Below, in pieces: positions 9,786 through 53,600 of a stretch of DNA of 64,000 nt. How positions within the stretch are numbered: the first letter of the stretch is position 1; each line of letters opens with the position of its first letter. The position numbers and the translations under genes are program-made. Location: contig JALJCQ010000025.1 of NCBI GenBank assembly GCA_023091665.1, positions 62,001 through 126,000 of the forward strand, written 5' to 3'. The DNA is from Pythium myriotylum. Taxonomy: Eukaryota > Oomycota > Peronosporomycetes > Pythiales > Pythiaceae. Under the pieces are notes generated by a model that saw only the letters and a program-made list of their open reading frames with translations, did not search any database and was not told the origin of the DNA.

Positions 9786-9965
9786 GCGTTTTTTTGTTGT
9801 TGTTGTATTTGTTGTTTGTCTGTTGCTTGCTACATCAACCTTTTTTCTCTTGGAGCGTTGCTTCCTCCTACCTTCTGTTGCCTTTCGTTGTCGCTTTTTG
9901 TCTTGCTCTTGGTGACGAGTGGATAGCCGACGTGGCTCGAACGAGCTCGCCAAAGCCAAACACGC

Positions 9966-10346
9966 TCACTCGCGTTTGCCCGTAGCTTTCTTGCCCTTGC
10001 CTGTATCCGCCTTCTTGGTGCTGGTGCTCGCTTCTCCCTTCTTGCCTGTGGTCGTGCTTGCCTGTGGCGTTGCGGCTGGCTTCGGACCGAGGTCCTTGCA
10101 AAAGCAATAGTAGCTGCCCTTGAGAAGCTTCGGCGCCATCTTCTTCGAGTTGTAGCAGGTCGTCGGCCCACTCACGACAGGCCACGCACTCGTGTCCACG
10201 TTGTGAGGATGCTTCTGTTCGCACGTCCTGTATCCTTCTGCCTCACACCCCTTTTCGTCTCCTTTGCACGGGCCAATCGCACTCGCAGAGCCGAAGAGCA
10301 CGATGGATGCACAGAGAGCGAGTTGGACGATAGCGACGGTCTTCAT
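9966..10346 (-). CDS. Small secreted cysteine-rich protein S1, left-arm copy
   Basis: 126 residues from ATG 10346. The N terminus is a classic signal peptide (MKTVAIVQLALCASIVLFGS, cleavage likely after ASA). The mature part starts IGPC and has six cysteines in the family pattern GPC-x7-GC-x6-TC-...-TC-...-YYCFCK, with the strictly kept block KHPHNV..SAWPVVSGP. Unlike its relatives it continues past CFCK with a ~42-residue Lys/Thr/Ser-rich tail. Upstream in-frame codons exist, but this ATG is the one shared by every family member. I do not recognise the family. Size, signal peptide and cysteines suggest an extracellular, perhaps effector-like protein; that role is inference. The encoded protein is identical to that of the right-arm copy. 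Confidence 0.85.
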   Translation of the reverse strand: MKTVAIVQLALCASIVLFGSASAIGPCKGDEKGCEAEGYRTCEQKHPHNVDTSAWPVVSGPTTCYNSKKMAPKLLKGSYYCFCKDLGPKPAATPQASTTTGKKGEASTSTKKADTGKGKKATGKRE

Positions 10347-10617
10347 GGTGGTTGGATGTGGTGGATGGGAGGTCGAGTAGTTGGTTCGTTGGTTGGTGGT
10401 GGTCGCTGGTTGGTGGCCAATTTGGGAGTGAGTGAACTCCAAGACCAATAGCGAAACTCGATGCTCGGCGTTCAATCCTCCATGGCGCGATCGCTCCCAG
10501 TAGGGTGCGTGTGGATGTGGCCCACATCCACACTGCTTAGTCACCCACATCCGATGTGGGTGACTGAGCAGTACAGTAGTGGGTGCGAGAGAACTCGTAA
10601 AGATCTCTGCCAGCGTG

Positions 10618-11106
10618 GAGTGTACTGTACATATGCCTTTGTTTGTCAGAGATGACAGTCAATATGTGGTCCTGTGTCGCGTGCCTGGAGCCAAGGTTGT
10701 GTAGTTGCGAGACACTTTGTGTTCACATCTCGTCCACAGATGGTCAGATCGGTACATATTGCTTCTTTGTTTCGGCATGGACAAATGTTGATGGCCACGT
10801 TGGCGGACGCGATCCAGTCGATCTTCGTGATCCACTCACCACCGATTGGATGGGAAGAAGACGGGTGTGTTGAGGAGACTGGCCATCCTTATTAGGCGAC
10901 AGACTGGCCGACAGCTGTCAGTATTCGCGACGTTGGCCTCCATACACTTCACTTGCATCGTCTTCGAGACTTGCGTCCAGGTTATCAACCATATTCCAGC
11001 AATATGGAAGGACTGGTGTTTCGTGTCAAAAGACGTTATTTATTTCCATCTGCTGACGGGGTTGAGCGAATCCTACGTCTCATCCATAGAATCGAAATCC
11101 ACTCTA
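10618..11106. other. Single-copy centre of palindrome 1
   Basis: 489 bp lying between the divergent S1 copies. It has no convincing gene. Confidence 0.6.
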
Positions 11107-11292
11107 CACGCTGGCAGAGATCTTTACGAGTTCTCTCGCACCCACTACTGTACTGCTCAGTCACCCACATCGGATGTGGGTGACTAAGCAGTGTGGATGT
11201 GGGCCACATCCACACGCACCCTACTGGGAGCGATCGCGCCATGGAGGATTGAACGCCGAGCATCGAGTTTCGCTATTGGTCTTGGAGTTCAC

Positions 11293-11307
11293 TCACTCCC
11301 AAATTGG
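11293..11307 (+). promoter_or_regulatory. Putative initiator-type motif of S1
   Basis: TCACTCCCAAATTGG, 85 bp before the S1 ATG, mirrored at 10417-10431 for the left copy. It resembles the known oomycete core promoter (initiator TCAYTYY followed by a CAWTTT-like flanking element). The other three gene types have an equivalent motif at 80-127 bp from the ATG. Confidence 0.5.
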
Positions 11308-11377
11308 CCACCAACCAGCGACCACCACCAACCAACGAACCAACTACTCGACCTCCCATCCACCACATCCAACCACC

Positions 11378-11758
11378 ATGAAGACCGTCGCTATCGTCCA
11401 ACTCGCTCTCTGTGCATCCATCGTGCTCTTCGGCTCTGCGAGTGCGATTGGCCCGTGCAAAGGAGACGAAAAGGGGTGTGAGGCAGAAGGATACAGGACG
11501 TGCGAACAGAAGCATCCTCACAACGTGGACACGAGTGCGTGGCCTGTCGTGAGTGGGCCGACGACCTGCTACAACTCGAAGAAGATGGCGCCGAAGCTTC
11601 TCAAGGGCAGCTACTATTGCTTTTGCAAGGACCTCGGTCCGAAGCCAGCCGCAACGCCACAGGCAAGCACGACCACAGGCAAGAAGGGAGAAGCGAGCAC
11701 CAGCACCAAGAAGGCGGATACAGGCAAGGGCAAGAAAGCTACGGGCAAACGCGAGTGA
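11378..11758 (+). CDS. Small secreted cysteine-rich protein S1, right-arm copy
   Basis: Encodes the same 126 residues as the left-arm gene: signal peptide ending ASA, six-cysteine mature core, and the basic Ser/Thr/Lys tail (KKADTGKGKKATGKRE at the end). The ATG lies in a leader poor in G and rich in CCA/AAC repeats, as in the other family genes. The gene reads away from the centre of palindrome 1, so the two S1 genes are divergent and about 1.03 kb apart from start to start. Protein identity between arms is complete, meaning either a recent inversion-duplication or gene conversion between arms. Confidence 0.85.
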   Translation: MKTVAIVQLALCASIVLFGSASAIGPCKGDEKGCEAEGYRTCEQKHPHNVDTSAWPVVSGPTTCYNSKKMAPKLLKGSYYCFCKDLGPKPAATPQASTTTGKKGEASTSTKKADTGKGKKATGKRE

Positions 11759-11936
11759 GCGTGTTTGGCTTTGGCGAGCTCGTTCGAGCCACGTCGGCTA
11801 TCCACTCGTCACCAAGAGCAAGACAAAAAGCGACAACGAAAGGCAACAGAAGGTAGGAGGAAGCAACGCTCCAAGAGAAAAAAGGTTGATGTAGCAAGCA
11901 ACAGACAAACAACAAATACAACAACAACAAAAACGC

Positions 11937-12304
11937 AAAGGTCAGGTTTCCGGGCGTAACAACGTTCGTAAAGCTTGTTTTCCGAAGGCGAGATGGGTGG
12001 CTCTCAAGGACTCAATCACGAAGCGTAGGATCGATAGAACAGGCCACATTTCAATTAGCGGCGTAATTCACCACTCCACTCCTGGGGGGCATCCCCAGCT
12101 GTCCTGCTGAGGCCGTCGACAGATCAATACGCTCTCATCCAGCTCGCTGGCGAGCGTTGCCCCCATGCCGAGCACACAAATCTGGAGAAAAAAACACCTA
12201 CGCTCTATGCTACAAAAGAACGCGACTCGTACAAAGCGGGTGAACGCAGGCCCACGTGAAGAGGATTCTTCCTAGACGACGACCGGGTTTGTCGACTGAG
12301 ACGA
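11937..12304. other. Spacer between palindromes 1 and 2
   Basis: 368 bp between the right arm of palindrome 1 and the left arm of palindrome 2. No gene is seen. Confidence 0.5.
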
Positions 12305-12946
12305 TGGCACATCCACGAGCGTTGAACATCGTGGCATTTGTGAACTTCCAAGCCGATGCGCACCAGCAGAATGTCGCCACGCGCAATGCCACATTCCACC
12401 AGATCAACCAGGAGTTGGAAACTGCCACGAAGAAAGGGCATCACGCAACCTCTAATCGAGAGGACACCATCGGTCCTTCGTTGCCAAGGGCGCGGCCAGA
12501 GTCTTCATGGCGGGGTTTATCGAAGTACCCACCTCGCCCGAGCCGTTCTAGATCTGTATAAAAACTAAAGAGGTGTCGATCTTGTAAGACCACCCATCAC
12601 CATGACCACCAATCACCCATCGAGACAGAGAGCACGTGTTTAGGTCTTGACTGCGCGAGTAAACGTAGGGGTGATCTGGGAAATTCTGTTCGCATGTCGG
12701 TGGCTTTTTACAATGTCAGTGAAAGTTCCATAATACCAAAGTTACTCGCCAAGTTTGGTTGTATTAAAGGGAGCACATGTGTTTTGTACTTGTAGTTATT
12801 GCTCGCTAGTGTATGAGCTCTTTGATTATCTGTCGTTCAAAACTGAACCCGTCCAATCTGAGGTTGACCTCTTCGCCCTTGACGAGCCGAAGAAAATCGA
12901 GTCAAGATAGACCGAACGAGCGCGCCAAAGCCAAGGCTCGCTTAGC

Positions 12947-13198
12947 TTACTTGCAGAAGCAGTAGTAGCTGCCCTTCTTGAGCTTCGGCGCCAACTTCTT
13001 GGACTTGGAGCAAGTCGTGGGTCCACTCACGACAGGCCACGCACTCGTGTCAACGTTGTGGGGGTGCTTCTGTTCACAGGTCTTGTATCCTTCTTTCTCG
13101 CATCCCTTCTCATCTCCCTTGCACGGCCCAACGGCATCCGCAGCGCCGAGCAGCAAGATAGCGCAGACTGCCATTTGGACGATCGCGAAAGTCTTCAT
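12947..13198 (-). CDS. Small secreted cysteine-rich protein S2, left-arm copy
   Basis: 83 residues from ATG 13198. A signal peptide (MKTFAIVQMAVCAILLLGAADA) is followed by the six-cysteine core beginning VGPCKGDEKGCEKEGYKTC and ending YYCFCK, where the protein stops; it lacks the tail of S1. The block EQKHPHNVDTSAWPVVSGP is shared with S1 and nearly so with S3. Longer in-frame extensions upstream are leader sequence, since all family members align from this Met. Function is unknown; it is secreted by inference. The protein is identical to that of the right-arm gene at 15346. Confidence 0.85.
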   Translation of the reverse strand: MKTFAIVQMAVCAILLLGAADAVGPCKGDEKGCEKEGYKTCEQKHPHNVDTSAWPVVSGPTTCSKSKKLAPKLKKGSYYCFCK

Positions 13199-13443
13199 AG
13201 TGGATGGAGGTGGTTGAGAAGTGGGGAAGTTGGTTGGGGTGGTCGGTGGTTGGTGGTCGGTGGCCGATTGGGAAATGAAACCTCTCGTCAGTGGTGAATG
13301 CTCAATGGCGAGACCATTCACGTGAGACCCACTGGACTCTGTGGGTGGCGTGAATGAAGAGGTCACTGCTTCGCGGATGGATCGCATCTGGATGATTTTC
13401 CCTTCAAGTGATGGCTGCTGGAGATCGGTAGTACCAATCATCG

Positions 13444-15100
13444 GCAGACGCTCGGGTTCCTTTTCTCCTCGATGTTGACGGTTTGTCCAAAGTTTGTGCA
13501 GACCAGACAGTCGAGTCACACAGGAGAAAAGAACATCTTCCCCACACAGAAGTCCGAACATATCTTAGCACGTTGCGTTGCTCTCGGTTTCCGTGGCGAA
13601 GCCGGTGAATTATCTGATGCGACAAGCCTCCCAACAGCCGGAGCAGTGGCCGCCATCAGCCGTCGCAAAATATAAAGGATCGAAGGATCGATGTGTCTTT
13701 CGATGGAATGTCGCAGTCTCATCGATGCAACGTTCTAGTTTAAATGGGTGAACAGATGGATCGGACGTCTGTTTGCACCTAACATCCGTCTTCATGTTGC
13801 TGTAGTATGGGTGATGCAACACTGACGGAATGGACAGCCCCAGCACAAGAGACACCGCATCTCACTTCAACTTCAAATACCGCAACCACCTCGTGATGAC
13901 TGGATTGTCAGTGTTTGTCATCCCGCCGTTACAAGTATCGACATACGTTACCCAGACAATTCTTCCGATGAACATGCTGTGAGGGTGGTCGTCGTGGATT
14001 CTGTCGATAACGTCCGAATCGGACGTTATGCTCATGGGAGCTCGGATTCCCCAAGGACGCTCGATTTACATGCAACGCGCAGATTGTCTGTAGCTATCAG
14101 TACTGGGTCAATCGTCGACGCTTTGAACAGATTGTTCAAACACGATAGACTACGACTTCTATCACTTCGGGCCAGGATGCATCTAGTCCAAGTCACAGGC
14201 TCGACACACAGTTTCACGAAAGAGCCGGAATCTTTGATGATCACAGAACCTTACAAACACTTTTTTTTTTTATCGTTTTCTCATGCTCCACGCAGCTCGT
14301 CAAGGGGCAATCGATGTATTGACCATGCACTCGAGGGCGTGGTGAGGCGGACGTTTAAGCGTGTGATCAATATAGTTTGTCGGAGTTGTTCGTGGGGCCT
14401 TGGTCGCCCAGACCGTTCCTCGCTTCTTACCGCATCGAAAAGCCGCAACATCCTCGAGCAATGTTCTGCTTCTCTTTGATGCTAAATATGTTTAGTTGGT
14501 GCGATGTATCGAGTTGAAGGAGTATTCACTGCTCACGTTCTCGTACTCCAAACGACCGATCACATTTCAGCGAGTGGACAGGGCAGCGTGGGCTATTCCA
14601 ACAGATCAACGTGCCGTAATGTGAATTGCACCACTCATCCATCTTCGCCGAAGTAACCAAGTTTGCCCCGATGCACCCAACGGAACGTAAGAAACAAGTC
14701 GAGTGCAAGTGAAATCGACTGAGCGATATTCAACAGCCATGCGTGATATGCACCCAGATACCACGACACCGATCATCACGATTGTCGGTGACTGGCCATC
14801 ACGGGGACGATAAGGTAAGTGCTCGCACGGCAGGATCCTGCTTCAAGAATGCCCCGTCTACCTGGGCCAGCCACTCCCAGGCAAGCGCCAATGCTTGTCC
14901 GCTTGAGGGAGAGGTAGCGCCCATGCAAATCATCTTTTCCCTTTCTCTATGGTTCTCGCCAGCAGACGATGGACCGTCCATCGGATGGAATCCATCAACG
15001 TACGTACATGATCCATACGAGTAACTACAGCTGTACATTGGCGCGCAGTGTGTACTGTACTATACTATTGATAGTTGAGCTTTCTTCTACACAAGATGGA
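13444..15100. other. Single-copy centre of palindrome 2
   Basis: 1657 bp between the divergent S2 genes. The longest open frame (about 13979-14479, plus) has no recognisable domain or start context and I do not call it. A small perfect dyad, AACGTCCG-AAT-CGGACGTT, lies at about 14008-14026. Confidence 0.5.
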
Positions 15101-15265
15101 CGATGATTGGTACTACCGATCTCCAGCAGCCATCACTTGAAGGGAAAATCATCCAGATGCGATCCATCCGCGAAGCAGTGACCTCTTCATTCACGCCACC
15201 CACAGAGTCCAGTGGGTCTCACGTGAATGGTCTCGCCATTGAGCATTCACCACTGACGAGAGGTT

Positions 15266-15280
15266 TCATTTCCCAATCGG
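15266..15280 (+). promoter_or_regulatory. Putative initiator-type motif of S2
   Basis: TCATTTCCCAATCGG, 80 bp before the S2 ATG and mirrored in the left arm. It is a good match to the oomycete initiator plus flanking-element pattern and to the motif before S1, S3 and S4. Confidence 0.5.
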
Positions 15281-15345
15281 CCACCGACCACCAACCACCG
15301 ACCACCCCAACCAACTTCCCCACTTCTCAACCACCTCCATCCACT

Positions 15346-15597
15346 ATGAAGACTTTCGCGATCGTCCAAATGGCAGTCTGCGCTATCTTGCTGCTCGGCG
15401 CTGCGGATGCCGTTGGGCCGTGCAAGGGAGATGAGAAGGGATGCGAGAAAGAAGGATACAAGACCTGTGAACAGAAGCACCCCCACAACGTTGACACGAG
15501 TGCGTGGCCTGTCGTGAGTGGACCCACGACTTGCTCCAAGTCCAAGAAGTTGGCGCCGAAGCTCAAGAAGGGCAGCTACTACTGCTTCTGCAAGTAA
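15346..15597 (+). CDS. Small secreted cysteine-rich protein S2, right-arm copy
   Basis: Encodes the same 83-residue protein as the left-arm copy: 22-residue signal peptide, then a compact mature domain with six cysteines (GPC, GC, TC, TC, YC, FC), so three disulfides are possible. It stops directly after YYCFCK. The gene reads outward from palindrome 2. Compared with S1, the core is mostly conserved but clearly a different paralogue (KTCEQ against RTCEQ, CSKSKKLAPKLKK against CYNSKKMAPKLLK). Confidence 0.85.
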   Translation: MKTFAIVQMAVCAILLLGAADAVGPCKGDEKGCEKEGYKTCEQKHPHNVDTSAWPVVSGPTTCSKSKKLAPKLKKGSYYCFCK

Positions 15598-16637
15598 GCT
15601 AAGCGAGCCTTGGCTTTGGCGCGCTCGTTCGGTCTATCTTGACTCGATTTTCTTCGGCTCGTCAAGGGCGAAGAGGTCAACCTCAGATTGGACGGGTTCA
15701 GTTTTGAACGACAGATAATCAAAGAGCTCATACACTAGCGAGCAATAACTACAAGTACAAAACACATGTGCTCCCTTTAATACAACCAAACTTGGCGAGT
15801 AACTTTGGTATTATGGAACTTTCACTGACATTGTAAAAAGCCACCGACATGCGAACAGAATTTCCCAGATCACCCCTACGTTTACTCGCGCAGTCAAGAC
15901 CTAAACACGTGCTCTCTGTCTCGATGGGTGATTGGTGGTCATGGTGATGGGTGGTCTTACAAGATCGACACCTCTTTAGTTTTTATACAGATCTAGAACG
16001 GCTCGGGCGAGGTGGGTACTTCGATAAACCCCGCCATGAAGACTCTGGCCGCGCCCTTGGCAACGAAGGACCGATGGTGTCCTCTCGATTAGAGGTTGCG
16101 TGATGCCCTTTCTTCGTGGCAGTTTCCAACTCCTGGTTGATCTGGTGGAATGTGGCATTGCGCGTGGCGACATTCTGCTGGTGCGCATCGGCTTGGAAGT
16201 TCACAAATGCCACGATGTTCAACGCTCGTGGATGTGCCACCGCTGTCGGGCATGTCACCTGCAAGAGCGAGTTGTTGAAATTACGCCGCGGTACGCCGCT
16301 GGTCCTGACAGTATCCGCGATTTCTTCTCCGACAGAGTTTCTCACGGTGACCCAGGACACCGACGTTACCGATACCTTAACCTGCATTGAAAGCAACCCG
16401 TGCCATTCAAGATGCTACGTATTTCGGAACAGAGCTGTAGTACGCTGCACACATCTGAGTGTGGTTCTTCCGTGGTAGGTACAGTAAGCTACATGTATTT
16501 GTTTTTCCATCTTTTTTAAATTCTCGTTTGAGCTTGAGTGCCCGGGATCGTCGGGTGTTCGTGTTGGCTTGAACGAGCCGATCCAATACGAGTGCAGAAG
16601 AATCGAACGAACTCGCCAAAGCCAAACATCACGTGGC

Positions 16638-16889
16638 TTACTTGCAGAAGCAATAGTAGCTGCCCTTGAGGAGGTTGGATACCAATTTTTTGGACTTGGT
16701 GCAAGTCGTGGGTCCACTCACGACAGGCCATGCACCCGTGTCTACGTTGTGGGGGTGCTTCTGTTCGCATACCGTGTATCCTTCTTTCTCGCATCCTTTC
16801 TCATCTCCGTTGCACGGACCAAAAGCATCGGTCGAGCCGAGCAGCAAGATAGCGCAGACGGCCATTTGGACGATCGCGAAAGTCTTCAT
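16638..16889 (-). CDS. Small secreted cysteine-rich protein S3, left-arm copy
   Basis: 83 residues from ATG 16889. The signal peptide (MKTFAIVQMAVCAILLLGST, cleavage likely after DA) precedes a core starting FGPCNGDEKGCEKEGYTVC with EQKHPHNVDTGAWPVVSGP and the family ending YYCFCK. Closest to S2; differences are spread through the mature part. In-frame sequence continues upstream of the ATG but belongs to the leader. Encodes the same protein as the copy at 21530. Function is unknown; extracellular by its signal peptide. Confidence 0.85.
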   Translation of the reverse strand: MKTFAIVQMAVCAILLLGSTDAFGPCNGDEKGCEKEGYTVCEQKHPHNVDTGAWPVVSGPTTCTKSKKLVSNLLKGSYYCFCK

Positions 16890-18962
16890 GGTGAATGGAG
16901 GTGGTTGGGAAGTGGGGAAGTTGGCTGAGGTGGCTGGTGTGGTCGGTGGTCCGAGGCAAATTGGGATGTGAGGAGGAAGGAATCGATACCTCTTCCGCGC
17001 TCGATTCGCTGCGCCACTAAAGAGCACGATGCAACGTTGTATTTTTTTCCCGGCTTTTCGTTGCCCTGTGCTATTTCTTTTCGTCCTGGCCACAAGCCGT
17101 TGCCTGCTTGGTGGAGGCCACGCTTTGTGTATCCTGGTTTCCGTTACCGTTACGAAGATTCCTCGTGGGTTCATGTTAACCCGTGAGCCTAGTCTGCACC
17201 GGCGGAATCAAATCACCTCCGATTTCTAATAATCTCAAAAACCACGTGCGCGATGTCGGTTTTTTGCGGCCGAGCTCAATGATCTCGACTGAAGCTATCA
17301 ATACCGCTAACGAGCAACGGCAGCCAACTCAATGCCGGTGGATGGCCAAGTACGAGATCAGACTCGCTGACGGTAGTGTGAAGCAATATGTAGGTCAATG
17401 CTTGCCGATGATTGTATTGACAACCGGATGAACCCTTTCAGCACGATGGCAGCTGAAGATCGGCAGTGACGATCATCTGGACATGATTTATGTCCTTTTT
17501 GACGATCGAGCGTAAATTTTGGGCATTCCGAGGAGACAATGCTGCTCCGACCTGTAAACCTGGGAAAGGAGACGCGGCGAAGTGGGAGGATGAGCTGGTG
17601 CGGCTGTGTTCAACCTGTCTGCGTCTAGTTCAAATGATCTGCAACTGACTACTAGTACTCTGGCATGTTGCACTCGGTTGTCAGACCACGAGATAAGTCG
17701 AGAGTCGACAAACGATGTCATTCGAGTGAGGAGTGCGATGCGAGTTGGAGTTCTTCTCATTTTTTTTTTTTTATAGAGAGAGTCTGACGTTGGTAAACTA
17801 TTGATGGATTGAGTAGATCGATACGATGATGCTATTGAGCGCAAAGAGAGAACCCTAATAGCTGGGGCGAGTTGCGTATATTTCTAGAATCGATATACTA
17901 CGAAGTACGTTACTGTTGTTATTATTATAGGGAAAAAGATAGGTATGTGGAGTATGTAGATCGTCATCTGGCTATGTTGAAACTCAATGAAGCTTCACCA
18001 GCCGCACGCAGTTAGCCCTCTCACCGGGATAGAGTCGACAAGACCGTGCCAACGGACAAAGCAACAGACCAACACGCCGCGCCACCACTCCACACAAGAG
18101 TAAGCCTCATTTTCTCGCCTTGTGGTACGCTTCACATCCCACTGCCTTGATTCGATGCGAACGCGGTAGCGACAGATTCGACTGGTGTCCAGGACTGAGG
18201 GCAGCTGCGGATCCCTGGTCACTGTCAGCATCTTGATTTTGAAGTGATTCGCCCGCGCGCACAAAGGCCGCATACGGCGAACCCACTGGCGATGATGATA
18301 CATACTTGTACCTTGAAGAGTGGACCACCCCGACCGTTTGATTACCAAATTCGGATTACTCGCGTTCGACCCTAGCCCACCGGAAGGAATGTGAAGGCAC
18401 TAGTACTCGTGTCTTCACAAAGTCACAGTCCCCTGTCTCTTCAACCTATTCCATTCCTAAATTGCAATACTAGCTCCAGAGAATCAACTGAAAGATCTTC
18501 AATATGAACCCAAGACCATGACGCATTGCCCAAACCTATCCCGACATCTCCAACGAAGGTAAGTTCTGTGACGCGCTCCCTTGTGCGCCTGAAAACCAGG
18601 CTAAGTGGGATTAGCGAATGAACCGCACTAAGCTCCGAAGGAAGTGCTGGTCGCGCAAGACGCGACAAGTGTTGGAGTTTCCTATCTGTTTCACGGAACG
18701 TCTATTGAGCAACGAATAAGTGCCTGCGAAGTTGAAGTAGAACGGAGAGAAAGTGCAGCATCTCAAGTGCGTGCACGACACAAGATCGCATTAACGACAG
18801 CACCTACAGCATGAATAACTCGTTGCACATCACGTTCACTAAGATGAACTCGCGTGTTGAAGGTACAGGACGCACTGACAATCACTTCACTTTTGTTTCC
18901 ATTCCACCGCATGGATTGTCATCTATCTCCTTTGGAATAGGATACGAGCTGCAGCTCCATGA

Positions 18963-19044
18963 CCTGGCACGACCCTCTTGACGAAGATTTCGACAATGAG
19001 GCTGTCCTCATTGTCGAAATCTTCGTCAAGAGGGTCGTGCCAGG
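18963..19044. repeat. Perfect hairpin: two 39-bp stems, 4-nt loop
   Basis: Positions 18963-19001 are the exact reverse complement of 19006-19044, leaving a loop of CTGT. The very short loop and perfect stem are typical of fold-back synthesis at a hairpin rather than of a transposon. Confidence 0.95.
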
Positions 19045-19095
19045 TTTCCGGATCTGCACAGTCAATCACTCCAACACCAAATCCTAACCCGCAGT

Positions 19096-19159
19096 TCTGC
19101 TCTAGCACGACATCCGATGTACGCACAGTGCATACGTCGGATTGTCGTGCTAGAGCAGA
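19096..19159. repeat. Near-perfect hairpin
   Basis: A stem of about 25 bp (TCTGCTCTAGCACGACA with its complement) with a 1-nt indel and few mismatches; the loop is about 10 nt. It lies directly after the 39-bp hairpin. Confidence 0.85.
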
Positions 19160-19592
19160 TTCGAATGGGGTTCATGACTCCAGTCGAATCTGCCGCTACC
19201 GCGTTCGCATCGAATCAAGGCAGTGGGATGTGAAGCGTACCACAGGGCGAGAAAATGAGGCTTACTCTTGTGTGGAGTGGTGGCGCGGCGTGTTGGTCTG
19301 TTGCTTTGTCCGTTGGCACGGTCTTGTCGACTCTATCCCGGTGAGAGGGCTAACTGCGTGCGGCTGGTGAAGCTTCATTGAGTTTCAACATAGCCAGATG
19401 ACGATCTACATACTCCACATACCTATCTTTTTCCCTATAATAATAACAACAGTAACGTACTTCGTAGTATATCGATTCTAGAAATATACGCAACACGCCC
19501 CAGCTATTAGGGTTCTCTCTTTGCGCTCAATAGCATCATCGTATCGATCTACTCAATCCATCAATAGTTTACCAACGTCAGACTCTCTCTAT

Positions 19593-20646
19593 CCCTTCGT
19601 TGACGGACGGTCCTTATATGATGCAAATATGCATCAGATTGCCTATACAATAAACAAGTATATTTTGCATAGACGGGTCACAACGTTGTGTGGAATTTGG
19701 CGAAGCAATTACGCTTTTGGTTGCAGCACAAAGCAACCTTGCAATGGGCGCACATGACCGCAGTCTGTGGGGCATCTTCAGCACTCTTGTTGTCGTCGGT
19801 GAGCCCTTGGTAGCGACACAAAAAGCACCGGAGACGAGTCGAGATGAACTCTGGAAGGTGATTGCCTGGTAAAAGACGACACGATGGCAACTCCACACTC
19901 GCAGATGTCACGTAGGTTCTTGTAGTCGATGCCGCACTCGCGGAGACGGTGATTCTCTTTTTCTGTGGACGATCACCTCGTGGGGCTGGTGCACCTTCGG
20001 CAAGTAGATCCATCGCCAATTGAACACGGAAGTCCTTGTGGTCAAGTTGACTGGAAGTACTTTGGCGGTGGATGATGTAGGCGTTCACGACAGCGGTCTC
20101 AATCAACCAGAAGAACAATGGCATCCACGTCCTGGACGATATGAGTTGAAGAGAATAGTAGCGTGTACGTTAGTAGTAGATGAAATACGTTGGCCGGTGT
20201 GAGAGTTTGGAGTCGTAAGTCGGGCGGGAGCAGCACATACGGCTCGTGATCGCGGATCTCGTGAACAAACGGACTGAATGAACCATTCGCTGCACCAGCA
20301 GAGCTGGTTTGCTGGCCTGGGACGTCGTTGGGTTCGCCGTTGCTTGATGGTGTCATTCGCATTCCCAACAGCATACGCGTGACAGCAAACAGTTCGACAT
20401 CCACATCTTGCGGTTCGTTGGTGTCGGGAGAATCCATGGTTGGCAGTGACTGAATGGCCCCCGACCCATTTCTCATCAACGGGAGCGCCAATCTCGAACA
20501 TTCGACCCACGTTTGAATCGTCTTGATCTAGGCAATCTCCTCGTACAACTCGTTTGGTGTAGATCACACTATTTCAGACGTTTTGATTCAAAAATCCATC
20601 ATAATTGCCAATCTGATGTAAATTTGCATCAGCCGTCAACGAAGGG
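19593..20646 (-). mobile_element. piggyBac-like defective DNA transposon, present in one palindrome arm only
   Basis: 1054 bp bounded by 14-bp terminal inverted repeats, CCCTTCGTTGACGG at the left and its complement at the right. A subterminal inverted repeat (GATGCAAAT..CATCAGATTG) follows, 12 nt further inside at the left end. The flanking AT at 19591-19592 and 20647-20648 looks like a 2-bp target duplication; the left arm of the palindrome shows the empty site. CCC-ends fit piggyBac, but the target is not the usual TTAA. The inside holds pieces of a piggyBac-type transposase (see next entry) too short to be autonomous. Confidence 0.85.
19678..20567 (-). pseudogene. piggyBac-type transposase remnant
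   Basis: The C-terminal part (20124 to 19678) reads FFWLIETAVVNAYIIHRQ, LDHKDFRVQLAMDLL and a terminal zinc-binding ring with RCFLCRYQG, MCAHCKVALC and CFAKFHTTL. This is the signature of the piggyBac transposase C-terminal domain. Upstream (20491 to about 20120) another frame encodes an unrelated-looking N-terminal region ending near HLLLTYTLLF, out of frame with the C-terminal part. The central catalytic domain with its Asp residues is missing, so the copy is an internal deletion product with a frame break. Confidence 0.75.
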
Positions 20647-21447
20647 ATAAAAAAAAAAATGAGAAGAACTCCAACTCGCATCTCACTCCTCACTCGAATG
20701 ACATCGTTTGTCGACTCTCGACTTATCTCGTGGTCTGACAACCGAGTGCAACATGCCAGAGTACTAGTAGTCAGTTGCAGATCATTTGAACTAGACGCAG
20801 ACAGGTTGAACACAGCCGCACCAGCTCATCCTCCCACTTCGCCGCGTCTCCTTTCCCAGGTTTACAGGTCGGAGCAGCATTGTCTCCTCGGAATGCCCAA
20901 AATTTACGCTCGATCGTCAAAAAGGACATAAATCATGTCCAGATGATCGTCACTGCCGATCTTCAGCTGCCATCGTGCTGAAAGGGTTCATCCGGTTGTC
21001 AATACAATCATCGGCAAGCATTGACCTACATATTGCTTCACACTACCGTCAGCGAGTCTGATCTCGTACTTGGCCATCCACCGGCATTGAGTTGGCTGCC
21101 GTTGCTCGTTAGCGGTATTGATAGCTTCAGTCGAGATCATTGAGCTCGGCCGCAAAAAACCGACATCGCGCACGTGGTTTTTGAGATTATTAGAAATCGG
21201 AGGTGATTTGATTCCGCCGGTGCAGACTAGGCTCACGGGTTAACATGAACCCACGAGGAATCTTCGTAACGGTAACGGAAACCAGGATACACAAAGCGTG
21301 GCCTCCACCAAGCAGGCAACGGCTTGTGGCCAGGACGAAAAGAAATAGCACAGGGCAACGAAAAGCCGGGAAAAAAATACAACGTTGCATCGTGCTCTTT
21401 AGTGGCGCAGCGAATCGAGCGCGGAAGAGGTATCGATTCCTTCCTCC

Positions 21448-21462
21448 TCACATCCCAATTTG
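21448..21462 (+). promoter_or_regulatory. Putative initiator-type motif of S3
   Basis: TCACATCCCAATTTG, 82 bp upstream of the S3 ATG. It is the copy closest to the published oomycete flanking element (CAWTTT). It is mirrored in the left arm. Confidence 0.5.
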
Positions 21463-21529
21463 CCTCGGACCACCGACCACACCAGCCACCTCAGCCAACT
21501 TCCCCACTTCCCAACCACCTCCATTCACC

Positions 21530-21781
21530 ATGAAGACTTTCGCGATCGTCCAAATGGCCGTCTGCGCTATCTTGCTGCTCGGCTCGACCGATGCTTTTGG
21601 TCCGTGCAACGGAGATGAGAAAGGATGCGAGAAAGAAGGATACACGGTATGCGAACAGAAGCACCCCCACAACGTAGACACGGGTGCATGGCCTGTCGTG
21701 AGTGGACCCACGACTTGCACCAAGTCCAAAAAATTGGTATCCAACCTCCTCAAGGGCAGCTACTATTGCTTCTGCAAGTAA
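21530..21781 (+). CDS. Small secreted cysteine-rich protein S3, right-arm copy
   Basis: 83-residue protein identical to that of the left-arm S3. Signal peptide, six cysteines, and the KHPHNVD..AWPVVSGP block are intact. It reads outward from palindrome 3. The arm also holds the piggyBac-like insertion about 0.9 kb upstream, between the gene and the palindrome centre, which the left arm lacks; the two S3 genes therefore have different distal upstream regions. Confidence 0.85.
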   Translation: MKTFAIVQMAVCAILLLGSTDAFGPCNGDEKGCEKEGYTVCEQKHPHNVDTGAWPVVSGPTTCTKSKKLVSNLLKGSYYCFCK

Positions 21782-22188
21782 GCCACGTGATGTTTGGCTT
21801 TGGCGAGTTCGTTCGATTCTTCTGCACTCGTATTGGATCGGCTCGTTCAAGCCAACACGAACACCCGACGATCCCGGGCACTCAAGCTCAAACGAGAATT
21901 TAAAAAAGATGGAAAAACAAATACATGTAGCTTACTGTACCTACCACGGAAGAACCACACTCAGATGTGTGCAGCGTACTACAGCTCTGTTCCGAAATAC
22001 GTAGCATCTTGAATGGCACGGGTTGCTTTCAATGCAGGTTAAGGTATCGGTAACGTCGGTGTCCTGGGTCACCGTGAGAAACTCTGTCGGAGAAGAAATC
22101 GCGGATACTGTCAGGACCAGCGGCGTACCGCGGCGTAATTTCAACAACTCGCTCTTGCAGGTGACATGCCCGACAGCGGTGGCACATC

Positions 22189-22429
22189 AATCGATGATCA
22201 CGTACGCTTCTCTATCTCACACGTTCGGCGAACAACACCATGGCTGATCTTGGGCTATGATTTGTTGAGTCGCGTCGATTTTCTAGGCGGAAACTAGAAA
22301 ATCGACGCTATCCAACGGATCGTCGCCAATTTCAGCGGTTGTTTGACTTGTTGTTCAGTTCTCAGCATCATAACCACCAGTCTGTACTTGGCAAACTTAT
22401 GAGATGGGAGCATCCGCACTCACTCGCAT
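22189..22429. other. Spacer between palindromes 3 and 4, with a hairpin
   Basis: About 240 bp. It holds a perfect 15-bp-stem hairpin (22272-22286 with 22294-22308, loop GCGGAAA). No gene. Confidence 0.6.
22272..22308. repeat. Perfect 15-bp-stem hairpin
   Basis: GCGTCGATTTTCTAG pairs exactly with 22294-22308 around a 7-nt loop. It sits in the gap between two gene-bearing palindromes. Confidence 0.9.
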
Positions 22430-22659
22430 ACCATTTTTGTTCTCCTTTTCATATCATGTATTTGATGTTTGCTGCCTGCGACTACTTACGGCTCGTGTTC
22501 GTCGACTGTGTTCGCCAGCTTGGGTCCACGTTGTCTTCCTTTGCTCTTGGCTGGTGCTTCCCCACGACCAGAATGTTGCCAACGTAACTCGAACACGGGG
22601 AAACGCAGACCCAAAACCAAAGCCGAGCCAGGACGCAACGTCCAAACCGAGGCCACTGC

Positions 22660-22914
22660 TTACTTGCAGAAGCAGTAGTATTGGCTCTTGACGAGCTTCG
22701 GTAGCGCCTTCTTTGTTTTGGTGCAGCCCTCTGGCCCACTCACGTAAGGCCACGAGCTCGGGTTGACGTTGTGAGGATGCTTTCGTTCACACGTGCCGTG
22801 GTTTTCCTTGGCACACCCTTTTTCCTGTCCTCCGGTGCACGGCCCGATCGCCTCTGCAGATCCGAGGAACACGATGGCGCAGACTGCCAGTTGCACGATA
22901 GCGAAAGCCTTCAT
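22660..22914 (-). CDS. Small secreted cysteine-rich protein S4, left-arm copy
   Basis: 84 residues from ATG 22914. The signal peptide (MKAFAIVQLAVCAIVFLGSA, cleavage after EA) precedes IGPCTGGQEKGCAKENHGTC, ERKHPHNVNPSSWPYVSGPE and a C terminus ending YYCFCK. It has six cysteines in family spacing. It is the most divergent paralogue: SSWPYVSGPEGC replaces the SAWPVVSGPTTC of S2. It differs from the right-arm copy by one residue (LVKSQ against LVKNQ). The 8-bp repeat array lies in its 5' leader and is open in frame, but I place the start at the family-wide Met. Confidence 0.85.
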   Translation of the reverse strand: MKAFAIVQLAVCAIVFLGSAEAIGPCTGGQEKGCAKENHGTCERKHPHNVNPSSWPYVSGPEGCTKTKKALPKLVKSQYYCFCK

Positions 22915-22932
22915 GGTGGTTAAGGTGGTAAG

Positions 22933-23012
22933 GCGGTGAGGTGGTGAGGTGGTGAGGTGGTGAGGTGGTGAGGTGGTGAGGTGGTGAGGTGGTGAGGTGG
23001 TGAGGTGGTGAG
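22933..23012. repeat. 8-bp leader minisatellite, left arm
   Basis: Nine perfect tandem copies of GTGGTGAG (CTCACCAC on the gene strand) plus one variant unit, in the 5' leader of S4. The right arm and the tandem copy have eight perfect units plus one variant. Confidence 0.9.
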
Positions 23013-23727
23013 AAGGCGCTTGTGGGGTCGGTGGCCGATTCGGAAATGAAGAACGCGCAACCAACTCTACTCAACGCTGCTACTCGATTGCTCCATGACG
23101 CGAACTTTCACACGGGAGACCCACCGGTGAGAGCTGCTGGTGGCTACTGCTGGTGACTACGGCTAGTGCCTGCTGTTGGTGCCTGCTGTTGATGCCGATT
23201 GGCGATGGCTACTGCTCGTGGTGTCTACTGGTGGCGTGAGGCGGTCGGTCCTCGCTATCCAGACGGTTCGGCTTCCGACGACACGCATCTAGATGATCCC
23301 TATCTGCGGTAGATGATAGATGATTGTGTGCGGTGGGTCAATATGCTCCACAAGAGTGTGTAGAGCGAGTCTGGAGCGTATTGAGTGCTGTACGGAGAGT
23401 GGGGCTGTACGTCTTGTGTCATCGCGACGCGCGTCTTCTGCATCACCGGTCGGCACCTGGACCTGGATACTCACACTACTGTACGTACTGCCGAGGATGG
23501 ATGGTGGATTCCATCCGCTGGACGGCGGTCCATCGCCTGCTACTTACTTTTGTGTCCACTGTCTTTGTGTGCCTCATGGCGAACAAAGATCGTCTTCTTA
23601 TTTTCAGACGTGATGGTTTAGATCGCTCTGTGTCCAATGGAATCGACACAGCCATCCGCAAATCATCTCCGCAAATCATCTCGCTGGTCATCTCGCTGGT
23701 CATCTTGCTGGTCATCGGCAGCCATCA

Positions 23728-24313
23728 CCCGGTCGCTATCTCACTCTTCTCCAACTCTCCTCCCCAGTGTGTAATTAATTGAAATCGATAAGTGGATGGA
23801 TGAGTTGGTACGACACCTCTCAGAAAAGGTAGAACTGTTAGATTGCCTACCGAGTGTGCATGTGTGTACGTGGGTAAATAAATGTGTTAGTGTGTGGTAC
23901 ATATGTAGTAGCAAGCTGGTCCGGTATCCGTTGATATCTTGCTCTGGCTGCACAATGTTGCAATGCTGTGAGAGGTGTTGGGATCAAGACGTCGTGCAGA
24001 AGTAAGCTCCAGCAAGTGGATGAGTACGCGTAATCAGACCTGAGAATGGCGTCGCATCGTCTCTCGCCTGAATGAAACGGCTGAACGCGATGGACTTCAC
24101 TCCGATCATCATCGACAGCCTTGTCATTCCCAGTGATCTTCGTTGAAGGTTTTTTCGCAGACAGTTGCGCTCGATTCTTTTGTTGGAACTATTTGGTTGG
24201 TCTTCCAGCGACGGCTGGATCGCAACTCTGGATAGAACGACGGACAAAAATGCCGGCGTGGTTTGTCGCACATGTCGACCTATGGGTCTAAAAAAACAAC
24301 CAGCTCCACCACA
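23728..24313. other. Single-copy centre of palindrome 4
   Basis: 586 bp between the divergent S4 genes. I see no gene. Confidence 0.5.
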
Positions 24314-24967
24314 TGATGGCTGCCGATGACCAGCGAGATGATTTGCGGAGATGATTTGCGGATGGCTGTGTCGATTCCATTGGACACAGAGCGATCTAAA
24401 CCATCACGTCTGAAAATAAGAAGACGATCTTTGTTCGCCATGAGGCACACAAAGACAGTGGACACAAAAGTAAGTAGCAGGCGATGGACCGCCGTCCAGC
24501 GGATGGAATCCACCATCCATCCTCGGCAGTACGTACAGTAGTGTGAGTATCCAGGTCCAGGTGCCGACCGGTGATGCAGAAGACGCGCGTCGCGATGACA
24601 CAAGACGTACAGCCCCACTCTCCGTACAGCACTCAATACGCTCCAGACTCGCTCTACACACTCTTGTGGAGCATATTGACCCACCGCACACAATCATCTA
24701 TCATCTACCGCAGATAGGGATCATCTAGATGCGTGTCGTCGGAAGCCGAACCGTCTGGATAGCGAGGACCGACCGCCTCACGCCACCAGTAGACACCACG
24801 AGCAGTAGCCATCGCCAATCGGCATCAACAGCAGGCACCAACAGCAGGCACTAGCCGTAGTCACCAGCAGTAGCCACCAGCAGCTCTCACCGGTGGGTCT
24901 CCCGTGTGAAAGTTCGCGTCATGGAGCAATCGAGTAGCAGCGTTGAGTAGAGTTGGTTGCGCGTTCT

Positions 24968-24982
24968 TCATTTCCGAATCGG
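24968..24982 (+). promoter_or_regulatory. Putative initiator-type motif of S4
   Basis: TCATTTCCGAATCGG, repeated at 26716-26730 in the second tandem unit and mirrored in the left arm of palindrome 4. It is 127 bp from the ATG, further than in S1-S3 because the 8-bp repeat array lies between. Confidence 0.5.
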
Positions 24983-25004
24983 CCACCGACCCCACAAGCG
25001 CCTT

Positions 25005-25076
25005 CTCACCACCTCACCACCTCACCACCTCACCACCTCACCACCTCACCACCTCACCACCTCACCACCTCACCGC
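25005..25076. repeat. 8-bp leader minisatellite, right arm
   Basis: Eight copies of CTCACCAC and one CTCACCGC in the S4 leader. The same array recurs at +1748 in the second tandem unit. Confidence 0.9.
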
Positions 25077-25094
25077 CTTACCACCTTAACCACC

Positions 25095-25349
25095 ATGAAG
25101 GCTTTCGCTATCGTGCAACTGGCAGTCTGCGCCATCGTGTTCCTCGGATCTGCAGAGGCGATCGGGCCGTGCACCGGAGGACAGGAAAAAGGGTGTGCCA
25201 AGGAAAACCACGGCACGTGTGAACGAAAGCATCCTCACAACGTCAACCCGAGCTCGTGGCCTTACGTGAGTGGGCCAGAGGGCTGCACCAAAACAAAGAA
25301 GGCGCTACCGAAGCTCGTCAAGAACCAATACTACTGCTTCTGCAAGTAA
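25095..25349 (+). CDS. Small secreted cysteine-rich protein S4, right-arm / tandem unit 1 copy
   Basis: 84 residues, with signal peptide and six-cysteine core ending YYCFCK. It is identical to the copy at 26843 and differs from the left-arm gene at 22660 by one residue. It is convergent with the truncated bZIP-START copy about 550 bp downstream. Function unknown; predicted extracellular. Confidence 0.85.
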   Translation: MKAFAIVQLAVCAIVFLGSAEAIGPCTGGQEKGCAKENHGTCERKHPHNVNPSSWPYVSGPEGCTKTKKALPKLVKNQYYCFCK

Positions 25350-25895
25350 GCAGTGGCCTCGGTTTGGACGTTGCGTCCTGGCTCGGCTTTGGTTTTGGGT
25401 CTGCGTTTCCCCGTGTTCGAGTTACGTTGGCAACATTCTGGTCGTGGGGAAGCACCAGCCAAGAGCAAAGGAAGACAACGTGGACCCAAGCTGGCGAACA
25501 CAGTCGACGAACACGAGCCGTAAGTAGTCGCAGGCAGCAAACATCAAATACATGATATAAAAATGAGAACAGAAATGGCACGTGAGAGAGAGAGGATGTA
25601 AAGAACGCTTTGTACTTCCCCTCCCCGTATCGTCGAAGTGACGCAGGTCATCGGGCCAGTCAGGCCGTTTCACTATGCAAAGTCCTGAGTAGCACTCGGA
25701 TGTGTTCACGCGCGACGCCTAAGTCTTCAGAGAACCCGCGACCTTGATATCCGGACTGGTGGAATCGAATGTTTTCTCATCAGTATTTAGAGAACTTTTG
25801 TCGGCGCTTTCTGACTTGCTCTCGCGAAAGACAAACGCTCGTTTGCAAGCCCATTTCTAGAGTTCAACGTAGCTTGCATGGGGTGGAAATGATTT

Positions 25896-26662
25896 CTACG
25901 ATGCATTGTTCTCATATGAAGGAGTATTTTTTGACTCGACAAGAGACACTTGTGGACCAACCACGAAAGTATCTACACGTGCCAGTGCGAATATAAGCTC
26001 AGTGACCCAGCGCCTTGCATATCCTGGATCATCTGCGCCGATCGAACCGGTGAGGGTAGTCAAAAACTCTCGACATTTTCCGTTGGCATCTTGTGTCAAA
26101 ACGTCCCAATTGCACCAGAAAAAATTCTCAGCTTTGGCAATACCTTCGCATTCCATCACGCTGTCAAGCTCCGGTGAGCAAGTGCATCTTAAGACCAGCA
26201 TGTATCCTGCGGTTGTCTGCATTCGAAAGACGAGAGCGAGTTGACGAACCATCTTGTCCATCCCTGGGTACTGTTCAATAGTGTGCAGGACCATCATATC
26301 GTCCGAGATGCGCTGAATGATCTCGTGAAAGAAATTCCCGAATCGGCCGATGTTGAACTCTTTGAACCGCTCTGCGTGTTCGTATATGGACCACGTCTCC
26401 TCTGCGGCGGTTTTGATGTCCGGCGAGCAGTAGGTCTTGCGTTTGACGAAGTGGATGAACCGCTCGTCCACGGCCTGCGAATCGCGCCACCCATAGAAGC
26501 TGTAGTTGTTCTCGCGAGCGCCGCTTGGCATCTTAAAGCACTTGATCGCGCGCATGGTCTCTTTGACGAGTGCCACGTATTCCTTTGGTGTGAACGGATG
26601 GTAGTACTCGGCAGACAACGACCGCCACCGCTCGCATTGCCAGTACCAGTCGTTCAGATCCA
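25896..26662 (-). pseudogene. 5'-truncated bZIP-START copy left by the tandem duplication
   Basis: Reads from the tandem junction at 26662 as about 255 codons in frame, identical to the C-terminal part of the gene at 27644 (DLNDWYWQCERWRSL, NNYSFYGWRDSQAVD, EIIQRISDDMMVLHTIEQYPG, RRWVTELIFALARVDTF). The N terminus, basic region and zipper are gone, so it could encode at most the START-like module. A Met codon sits at the junction, but upstream is the S4 leader of the next unit in reverse, so expression is doubtful. Confidence 0.85.
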
Positions 26663-26842
26663 CGCGTCATGGAGCAATCGAGTAGCAGCGTTGAGTAGAG
26701 TTGGTTGCGCGTTCTTCATTTCCGAATCGGCCACCGACCCCACAAGCGCCTTCTCACCACCTCACCACCTCACCACCTCACCACCTCACCACCTCACCAC
26801 CTCACCACCTCACCACCTCACCGCCTTACCACCTTAACCACC

Positions 26843-27097
26843 ATGAAGGCTTTCGCTATCGTGCAACTGGCAGTCTGCGCCATCGTGTTCCTCGGATCTG
26901 CAGAGGCGATCGGGCCGTGCACCGGAGGACAGGAAAAAGGGTGTGCCAAGGAAAACCACGGCACGTGTGAACGAAAGCATCCTCACAACGTCAACCCGAG
27001 CTCGTGGCCTTACGTGAGTGGGCCAGAGGGCTGCACCAAAACAAAGAAGGCGCTACCGAAGCTCGTCAAGAACCAATACTACTGCTTCTGCAAGTAA
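26843..27097 (+). CDS. Small secreted cysteine-rich protein S4, tandem unit 2 copy
   Basis: Exact repeat of the gene at 25095, 1748 bp downstream, with the same leader minisatellite and initiator-like motif. It is convergent with the intact bZIP-START gene at 27644-28878. With this copy the window holds nine family genes in total: two each of S1, S2 and S3, and three of S4. Confidence 0.85.
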   Translation: MKAFAIVQLAVCAIVFLGSAEAIGPCTGGQEKGCAKENHGTCERKHPHNVNPSSWPYVSGPEGCTKTKKALPKLVKNQYYCFCK

Positions 27098-27643
27098 GCA
27101 GTGGCCTCGGTTTGGACGTTGCGTCCTGGCTCGGCTTTGGTTTTGGGTCTGCGTTTCCCCGTGTTCGAGTTACGTTGGCAACATTCTGGTCGTGGGGAAG
27201 CACCAGCCAAGAGCAAAGGAAGACAACGTGGACCCAAGCTGGCGAACACAGTCGACGAACACGAGCCGTAAGTAGTCGCAGGCAGCAAACATCAAATACA
27301 TGATATAAAAATGAGAACAGAAATGGCACGTGAGAGAGAGAGGATGTAAAGAACGCTTTGTACTTCCCCTCCCCGTATCGTCGAAGTGACGCAGGTCATC
27401 GGGCCAGTCAGGCCGTTTCACTATGCAAAGTCCTGAGTAGCACTCGGATGTGTTCACGCGCGACGCCTAAGTCTTCAGAGAACCCGCGACCTTGATATCC
27501 GGACTGGTGGAATCGAATGTTTTCTCATCAGTATTTAGAGAACTTTTGTCGGCGCTTTCTGACTTGCTCTCGCGAAAGACAAACGCTCGTTTGCAAGCCC
27601 ATTTCTAGAGTTCAACGTAGCTTGCATGGGGTGGAAATGATTT

Positions 27644-28878
27644 CTACGATGCATTGTTCTCATATGAAGGAGTATTTTTTGACTCGACAAGAGACACTTG
27701 TGGACCAACCACGAAAGTATCTACACGTGCCAGTGCGAATATAAGCTCAGTGACCCAGCGCCTTGCATATCCTGGATCATCTGCGCCGATCGAACCGGTG
27801 AGGGTAGTCAAAAACTCTCGACATTTTCCGTTGGCATCTTGTGTCAAAACGTCCCAATTGCACCAGAAAAAATTCTCAGCTTTGGCAATACCTTCGCATT
27901 CCATCACGCTGTCAAGCTCCGGTGAGCAAGTGCATCTTAAGACCAGCATGTATCCTGCGGTTGTCTGCATTCGAAAGACGAGAGCGAGTTGACGAACCAT
28001 CTTGTCCATCCCTGGGTACTGTTCAATAGTGTGCAGGACCATCATATCGTCCGAGATGCGCTGAATGATCTCGTGAAAGAAATTCCCGAATCGGCCGATG
28101 TTGAACTCTTTGAACCGCTCTGCGTGTTCGTATATGGACCACGTCTCCTCTGCGGCGGTTTTGATGTCCGGCGAGCAGTAGGTCTTGCGTTTGACGAAGT
28201 GGATGAACCGCTCGTCCACGGCCTGCGAATCGCGCCACCCATAGAAGCTGTAGTTGTTCTCGCGAGCGCCGCTTGGCATCTTAAAGCACTTGATCGCGCG
28301 CATGGTCTCTTTGACGAGTGCCACGTATTCCTTTGGTGTGAACGGATGGTAGTACTCGGCAGACAACGACCGCCACCGCTCGCATTGCCAGTACCAGTCG
28401 TTCAGATCCATACCGCGCATGAGCTTGTGGAGCGAGGTCGTGCTCTCGTAGTGGTGCTTGAGCATGGCCAGCAACTCCGTTCGTACCTGGCGCTCGGACT
28501 GTTCCTGCGACACCAGCGTGACCATATTGCGGAGAAAGGCGCGCATGCGCCGCGTCTTCTCGTCGTTCGGTGGATGCTCCTCATCGTCATCAGGCGACTG
28601 CAGCGCATACGGCAAGTTTGCCACGACGTGCTCGTAGGCCTCGGCACGTGCGCGCAGTCGCTGGAGAGAAGGCTACCATCGAGCAAGCGATTATTATTAG
28701 CGATGCGCACGGTTGTGCGTGGCACAATTGTGAGGAGACCACAAACCGTTCGGCGGCGTGGTGCGCGTGTCACAGACGCAGTTAAAATGGGCGAGGGAGA
28801 AGGCGAGGAGACGGGCGACGGCGTGGCGTCGGCGGCGCTTTCGTCGTCGTCGCAAGAGAGCAGCCGCGCGATGTCCAT
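27644..28878 (-). CDS. bZIP-START-like protein with degenerate basic region, one intron
   Basis: Exon 1 is 28747-28878 and exon 2 27644-28660, joined across an 86-bp intron (28661-28746, GTTTGT to CTCCAG) in phase 0; the protein is 382 residues. Exon 1 (MDIARLLSCDDDESAADATP) ends APRRRT and exon 2 starts RLRARAEAYEHVVANLPYALQ, so the basic region across the splice is short and has no Asn-x7-Arg. The C-terminal module is the most divergent in the window (FTPKEYVALVKETMRAIKCF, YSFYGWRDSQAVD, FRMQTTAGYMLVLRC). The splice sites are my prediction; they keep frame and match the position used in the paralogues. The 5' half is single copy; the 3' half is duplicated upstream. Confidence 0.8.
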
Positions 28879-53297: not shown

Positions 53298-53600
53298 TGT
53301 AACGGGGTACAAGGTTACACAAGTAGGTTAGGTTGTGTAGGTACATAATGTGTGTGGTCCACTTAGGGGAAAAGTTACCCTAAGTAGTGACTCTCTTTTA
53401 TTAGATTCAGTAGGTGATATCCCTGGGTATTAGATACCAGGGATATCAGGTATAGGGGGAATTATTCCCCAGGGGACAAATCTGAATACAATCAGTTCGC
53501 TTTTTGCCAAGTCCTTGGCGCTCGTCGACAGGGGTCGACTCGGAGCGGCTGCTCACGCTTCCTCAAGCGCAGGTGCTGTGTACGGTCGTGGACCGTTACA
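53298..53600 (+). repeat. 5' LTR
   Basis: 303 bp, TGTAAC at the start, GTTACA at the end. It appears the same as 60149-60451. It contains a dyad around CCCTGGGTAT/ATACCAGGGATATC at about 53420-53450. A primer-binding site would begin at TGG 53604; its tRNA is not identified. Confidence 0.9.

Follow-up and report, generated by a model that had tools for sequence, protein, structure and literature searches.

The window analysed here is a 64,000-nucleotide stretch of the oomycete Pythium myriotylum (GenBank assembly GCA_023091665.1, contig JALJCQ010000025.1, positions 62,001 to 126,000), part of the 738-kb contig C25 in a genome of 58.7 Mb and 55 contigs. It holds four consecutive palindromes, P1 to P4, which carry in each arm one outward-reading gene for a small cysteine-rich protein (S1 to S4). 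An earlier note on this DNA had described such an array; the four inverted repeats lie in the assembly sequence where it placed them, and base-by-base alignment of the arms, one of the checks it proposed, found them nearly identical inside. The four palindromes are real in the assembly. All our tests were confined to this one assembly, and positions are those of the window unless another reference is named.

Results

The paired genes of each palindrome read away from each other. S1 is encoded at 9966..10346 on the minus strand and at 11378..11758 on the plus strand (126 amino acids), S2 at 12947..13198 (minus) and 15346..15597 (plus; 83 amino acids), S3 at 16638..16889 (minus) and 21530..21781 (plus; 83 amino acids), and S4 at 22660..22914 (minus; 84 amino acids) and 25095..25349 (plus). 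As the earlier note had it, left and right proteins are identical for S1, S2 and S3 and differ by one residue in S4, where the right copy has N in place of S. A third S4 copy (26843..27097, plus) belongs to the second unit of a tandem duplication at 24915..28410, whose 1748-bp units (24915-26662 and 26663-28410) are 100% identical and which also adds a shortened, 219-amino-acid copy of the adjoining 300-amino-acid gene.

The sequence of the S protein suggests that it is secreted: a signal-peptide-like start is followed by six cysteines. A six-frame search with S1 gave 15 matches, all on C25: nine in the window, five at 183-193 kb and one at 259 kb of the contig. Four S copies at 183-192 kb have equal scores and the same strand, and three of them form a direct array at 1741-bp spacing; taken with the palindromes, this indicates that direct and inverted duplication both act on the S family. 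No homologous protein scored in searches for relatives, either for S or for the neighbouring 300-amino-acid protein; S had no match among Pfam families, and S1, the one member compared with the PDB, had none there by sequence. With a structure model of S of low confidence (mean predicted local distance difference test score, pLDDT, 62.5) as query, Foldseek gave 28 matches at E ≤ 10, the best at E 2.6 and none reaching 0.001; they were not used.

Self-alignment delimited the arms, the left arm of each pair being taken as plus and the right as minus. Those of P1 (9791..10618 and 11106..11933) have no substitution in 827 bp, and those of P2 (12305..13443 and 15101..16239) are identical at 1139 of 1139 positions. 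P3 is an inverted repeat, as had been proposed, but its right arm (19176..22188) is broken by a 1056-bp element (19593-20648) that is missing from the left arm (16231..18189), where the empty site lies at 17770/17773. Its outer block (16231-17770 and 20649-22188) has one substitution in 1540 bp, and its inner block (17773-18189 and 19176-19592) has two in 399 bp after trimming, or four in 417 bp untrimmed. The P4 arms (about 22451..23692 and 24325..25558) differ by one substitution and an 8-bp repeat-unit indel over trimmed blocks of 484 and 750 bp, and inspection by eye suggests a 24-bp repeat-unit difference in the inner flanks. The outer edge of P4 is ragged: 40 bp at 22411-22450 are only about 78% alike, with nine differences, whereas the arm beyond is almost identical. 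P2, and P3 at its outer edge, have sharp edges.

In all four palindromes, the near-identical inverted copies surround a spacer that is not duplicated. The spacers measure 487 or 477 bp in P1 (depending on the P1 end chosen), 1657 bp in P2, 986 bp in P3 and 632 bp in P4, and none has a duplicate in 264 kb of C25, the region covered by the self-comparison and the spacer search; about 200 bp of the P2 spacer has 79% matches on contigs C13 and C1. The self-matches listed in this region at a minimum of 300 bp and 90% identity number 16, of which 10 are direct and 6 inverted. Because every inverted match (6/6) falls inside the array or in the adjoining third S4 copy, we do not regard the array as a product of chance. 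The same region contains 22 hairpins, five of them within the array, and the two arms of P1 account for two of these five; this being too few, hairpin enrichment was set aside as evidence. The longest of the five is a near-perfect hairpin at 18962-19045 in the P3 spacer, with arms of 40 bp and a loop of 4.

Separate, recent inversion of each locus was one of two origins considered in the earlier note, the other being loci that drift apart while gene conversion keeps their arms alike. The four repeats stand, but P2 and P3 are joined: the last 9 bp of the P2 right arm, GATGTGCCA (16231..16239), are also the first 9 bp of the P3 left arm, and the same 9 bp recur on the other strand at the ends of the far arms, at 12305-12313 (P2 left) and 22180-22188 (P3 right). 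If the S2 arm is written a, the S3 arm b, and the spacers x and y, the segments follow the order a x a' b' y b, equivalent to an inverted copy of the b-a junction inserted between x and y. An origin of P2 and P3 from one inverted insertion of two joined segments best explains this arrangement. It is far less satisfactory to assume two independent inversions that chanced upon the same base, and, given a common junction with a 9-bp match at three sites, the idea that each locus inverted separately is probably wrong for this pair. Overlaps of at least 9 bp arose in 6e-5 of 200,000 random joins within the 264 kb, a figure to be read with the caveat that template switching itself favours such matches. 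We also considered a tandem duplication followed by inversion, which would need the same spacer sequence in both palindromes; no common sequence was detected between x and y, and since they are unlike, a simple inversion within a tandem duplication is disfavoured, barring extra deletions. Another possible route to this order is a circle that carried the b-a junction, entered the locus in reverse and was then trimmed. The 9-bp microhomology was observed at P2/P3; the remaining junctions of the array are not separable from the arms.

Paralogues of different palindromes are clearly diverged, in agreement with the earlier note. Across the six pairs formed by the left genes of S1, S2, S3 and S4, the synonymous divergence (dS) is 0.37-1.35, and the ratio of nonsynonymous to synonymous divergence (dN/dS) is 0.12-0.37. 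Homology between palindromes mostly extends from about -270 to +380 around the start codon and is confined near the gene even for S2/S3, where dS is only 0.37; the exceptions are a weak S2/S3 match (138 bp at 66%, at -610 to -476 in S3) and a 65% match between S1 right and S2 left that extends to -495. When divergences of 29, 40 and 50% were simulated (one run each, substitutions only), nearly the whole of 2945 bp still aligned, so that old common arms should have shown, most clearly for S2/S3. Because what the palindromes have in common is mostly the gene with its immediate surroundings, descent of the long arms from a single ancestral palindrome is rejected, and the earlier note is borne out in denying that one palindrome was copied as a block. 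Interior substitutions, counted 40 bp off each end, number 0, 0, 3 and 1 over 748, 1059, 1879 and 1162 bp in P1 to P4. These counts are compatible with a rate common to all four, about 0.0008 substitutions per site (p = 0.44), and a single burst, four events of similar low age, or homogenisation are all possible explanations of the arm divergence.

The element in the right arm of P3 (19593..20648) has the terminal inverted repeats CCCTTCGTTGACGG and is flanked by a TA/AT dinucleotide. C17 carries a second copy, which matches it at about 97.7% over blocks of 488 and 360 bp. The two open reading frames (ORFs) of the P3 element have no Pfam match at E 0.01, and although its features had suggested a piggyBac-like element, we leave it unnamed for that reason. 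Its presence in one arm fits insertion into the P3 right arm after the duplication, the other possibility being an exact loss from the left arm.

The array has counterparts elsewhere in this genome, where mirror-image gene doubling recurs. We searched four Pfam families picked as likely multi-copy, with no random control (elicitin, CAP, Kazal and sugar transporter, one of them non-secreted), and each contains at least one mirror pair. The elicitin family (PF00964) has 135 matches in the genome and none in 14 control genomes, prokaryotes as far as these are named. Elicitins mark oomycetes, and it was by these matches that the genome was taken for one. At the DNA level, the 26.1 kb compared from the elicitin cluster on C1 (2498801-2524900; loci L041-L045) contain a minimum of three additional palindromes. 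Their arms measure 2784 bp (12 differences, 8 of which sit within 62 bp of the outer end), 811 bp (7 differences) and 420 bp (2 differences); the respective spacers are 1501, 890 and 1098 bp long, and the elicitin matches read outward. The spacer is not duplicated within the 26.1 kb in any of these three primary palindromes. The cluster also has long near-identical direct repeats (3936 bp at 99.5% and 3298 bp at 98.8%), and further inverted pairs overlap them.

The remaining families are described by match coordinates only. Kazal domains on C26 form two exact mirrors, 1791263-1793113 with 1799804-1801654 and 1795915-1796523 with 1797639-1798247; the inner gene reads inward, and across 1791263-1801654 the outer and inner parts are set off by a net 1245 bp. 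CAP genes occur as neighbouring opposite copies with equal scores at C12:3716240-3721696 and C31:79409-80760, the C31 pair facing each other, and so do sugar-transporter genes at C27:855789-861287, among the 9 of 83 candidates that were scored. An outward gene direction is not a rule in mirror pairs.

Discussion

We propose that the array arose by local, probably recent, inverted duplication through replication template switching, with at least one compound event, and on balance we hold this explanation to be probable. Four old, diverged paralogues of a secreted cysteine-rich gene would each have been doubled by a local inverted duplication. Replication or repair synthesis may have made a reversed copy of a 0.8-3 kb segment that contains one complete gene and the DNA upstream of it, with a 0.5-1.7 kb loop remaining between original and copy, as happens in fold-back or microhomology template switching. 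During the compound event, copying would have run back through the S2 arm, jumped at the 9-bp microhomology to the outer end of the S3 arm, run back through that arm and rejoined, such that P2 and P3 would have been born together. The near-identity of the arms may then reflect youth, possibly with the aid of arm-to-arm conversion, and a likely consequence would be a higher gene dosage in divergent pairs.

Several points weigh against this proposal. By eye, the other two switch points of the P2/P3 event have no clear microhomology. Heavy insertion and deletion could weaken the simulation argument against common ancestral arms, and the age of the arms is not separable from their homogenisation with one assembly. 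The edge-biased substitutions discussed below, like the outer edge of P4 with its 78%, could indicate a greater age for some arms than their interiors suggest. Homology outside the arms gave mixed answers as to which arm is original: anchored extension (32 tests, 60 shuffles each) leaned towards S2 left, with z 7.1 against S3 and 4.8 against S1 right, and on the other side S2 right scored 5.2 and 3.1 against the copies labelled T, S1 right 4.5 against S2 left, and S1 left 4.4 against the copy labelled U. These mixed scores were not used.

A serious, though in our judgment unlikely, alternative is that the palindromes are older and that ongoing arm-to-arm gene conversion keeps their arms alike, as in sex-chromosome palindromes, with differences persisting only at edges next to non-matching DNA. 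We compared nine inverted segments with their ragged tips trimmed (P1, P2, two parts each of P3 and P4, and the elicitin palindromes E1-E3), counting as edge all positions within 100 bp of a heterology edge, a limit chosen after looking at the data. Seven of the ten substitutions lie at edges (7/1800 edge against 3/7275 interior positions; Fisher p = 0.0008), and trimming had removed 25 further edge substitutions (2 in P3, 9 in P4, 9 in E1 and 5 in E2). Two of the three P3 substitutions are 34 and 97 bp from the inserted element, and the passage in P4 from a poorly matching outer 40 bp to an almost identical arm likewise favours conversion. However, direct repeats of the same genome, four of which served as a control, have the bias as well (13/800 against 12/10370, p = 2.8e-9; all 25 substitutions in two elicitin repeats and none in the other two), so it is not palindrome-specific, and it can equally arise from breakpoints inside older homology. 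After this control, edge clustering was rejected as proof of conversion; a previous untrimmed version of the test, designed post hoc and dominated by the nine P4 differences, was replaced by the trimmed one. Two extra inverted pairs overlapping these segments gave only 2/400 against 3/2045 (p = 0.19). The sharp edges of P2 and of the outer side of P3 also argue against conversion, as does the P3 element, which has neither been lost nor spread to the other arm.

Mirror-image structures can also be made by assembly, from fold-back or amplification chimeras or from two haplotypes joined in mirror image, an origin that we consider improbable here. Amplification chimeras typically show nearby mirror joins at short matches, and this assembly has mirror pairs at several places. 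Yet the spacer differs at each palindrome, no inverted repeat outside the array and its adjoining S4 copy reaches 300 bp and 90% identity in the 264 kb, and the arms of P3 and P4 have private differences (the 1056-bp element, the repeat-unit indel and the coding change), an argument that does not extend to P1 and P2, whose arms are free of substitutions. It seems very improbable that several fully independent inverted duplications took place at different times, with the contact of P2 and P3 due to coincidence or to a breakage hotspot. The elicitin palindromes differ more between their arms than those of the window, so that ages need not match, and the hairpins in the P1 arms and the P3 spacer also count for this possibility; against it, P2 and P3 meet at exactly the same base on their outer sides, and the 9-bp match is present at each of the three sites. 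It is barely credible that each palindrome is a gene-carrying transposable element whose long arms are its terminal inverted repeats. Fold-back elements, too, have long inverted arms and a short centre, and the 9-bp direct repeats at the two ends of the P2-P3 composite (12305-12313 and 22180-22188) could pass for a target-site duplication, but these 9 bp belong to the arms themselves, the outer arm ends of the four palindromes have no common terminal sequence, and apart from gene homology and short repeats no arm matched elsewhere in the genome among the best candidates.

One may extend the proposal of template switching further. All four palindromes could stem from a single burst of local replication, a chromoanasynthesis on the scale of genes. 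Together with tandem duplication, repeated bursts of this kind could raise the copy number of multi-copy genes in this genome, which would make gene-bearing palindromes a standing amplification route in an oomycete and not rare accidents. We regard this extension as doubtful.

Kinds of rearrangement with the same parts are already known in other organisms (PMC3907307, PMC4352052, PMC10766186, PMC6790999). Fold-back inverted duplications of the human genome have single-copy (disomic) spacers of 766-70466 bp and 2-8 bp of microhomology at 13 junctions (PMC3907307); like the array, they combine inverted copies, a short single-copy loop and short inverted matches at the inner boundary. Unlike the array, which is interstitial, gene-sized (0.8-3 kb) and chained, the human cases are large and arise with terminal deletions, translocations or rings (PMC3907307). 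Duplication-inverted triplication-duplication (DUP-TRP/INV-DUP) rearrangements of the microhomology-mediated break-induced replication (MMBIR) type (PMC4352052) and origin-dependent inverted-repeat amplification (ODIRA; PMC10766186) also join inverted copies through template switches at short matches, several per event. In contrast to DUP-TRP/INV-DUP (PMC4352052), no segment is triplicated in the order a x a' b' y b of P2/P3. The palindromes of the human Y chromosome hold genes in near-identical arms around a spacer, and a new palindrome has been attributed to MMBIR (PMC6790999); their arms, however, are tens of kilobases long and sex-linked, and their gene conversion is documented (PMC6790999), whereas for the array conversion is only a rival explanation.

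Oomycete secreted-protein families are usually described as growing via tandem duplication and transposons (PMC2678259, PMC11139960). The Phytophthora Avr3c array, with sequence exchange between Avr3c copies (PMC2678259), and the tandem-duplicated RxLR and elicitin genes of P. sojae (PMC11139960) resemble the present locus in the local amplification of secreted-protein genes. Both are described as tandem, unlike the array: in the available text, the word "inverted" occurs 0 times for Avr3c (PMC2678259) and "palindrom" 0 times for the P. sojae arrays (PMC11139960). A search of titles and the beginnings of abstracts in the open-licence literature found no oomycete for which gene-bearing palindromes are described. 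In the present array, four paralogues lying side by side have been doubled by inverted duplication, one compound junction is exact to the base, and the architecture recurs in an elicitin cluster. If our proposal is correct, the locus would offer a natural set of small gene-bearing palindromes for separating birth by template switching from upkeep by gene conversion. It is conceivable that such pairs are collapsed in short-read assemblies.

Other Features of the Window

Between P1 and P2 lies a dispersed repeat (11937..12193) with 87-89% matches on C31, C8, C11, C17 and C41; paired copies about 5 kb apart suggest that it may be like a long terminal repeat. Beyond the array, a direct repeat at 29094-30325 and 30826-32085 is 77% identical, and an ORF at 29978-30340 (minus strand), which overlaps the copy at 29094-30325, matches the fructose-1,6-bisphosphatase N-terminal domain in Pfam. 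Farther on, 53298-53600 and 60149-60451 form an exact 303-bp direct repeat whose copies are about 6.9 kb apart.

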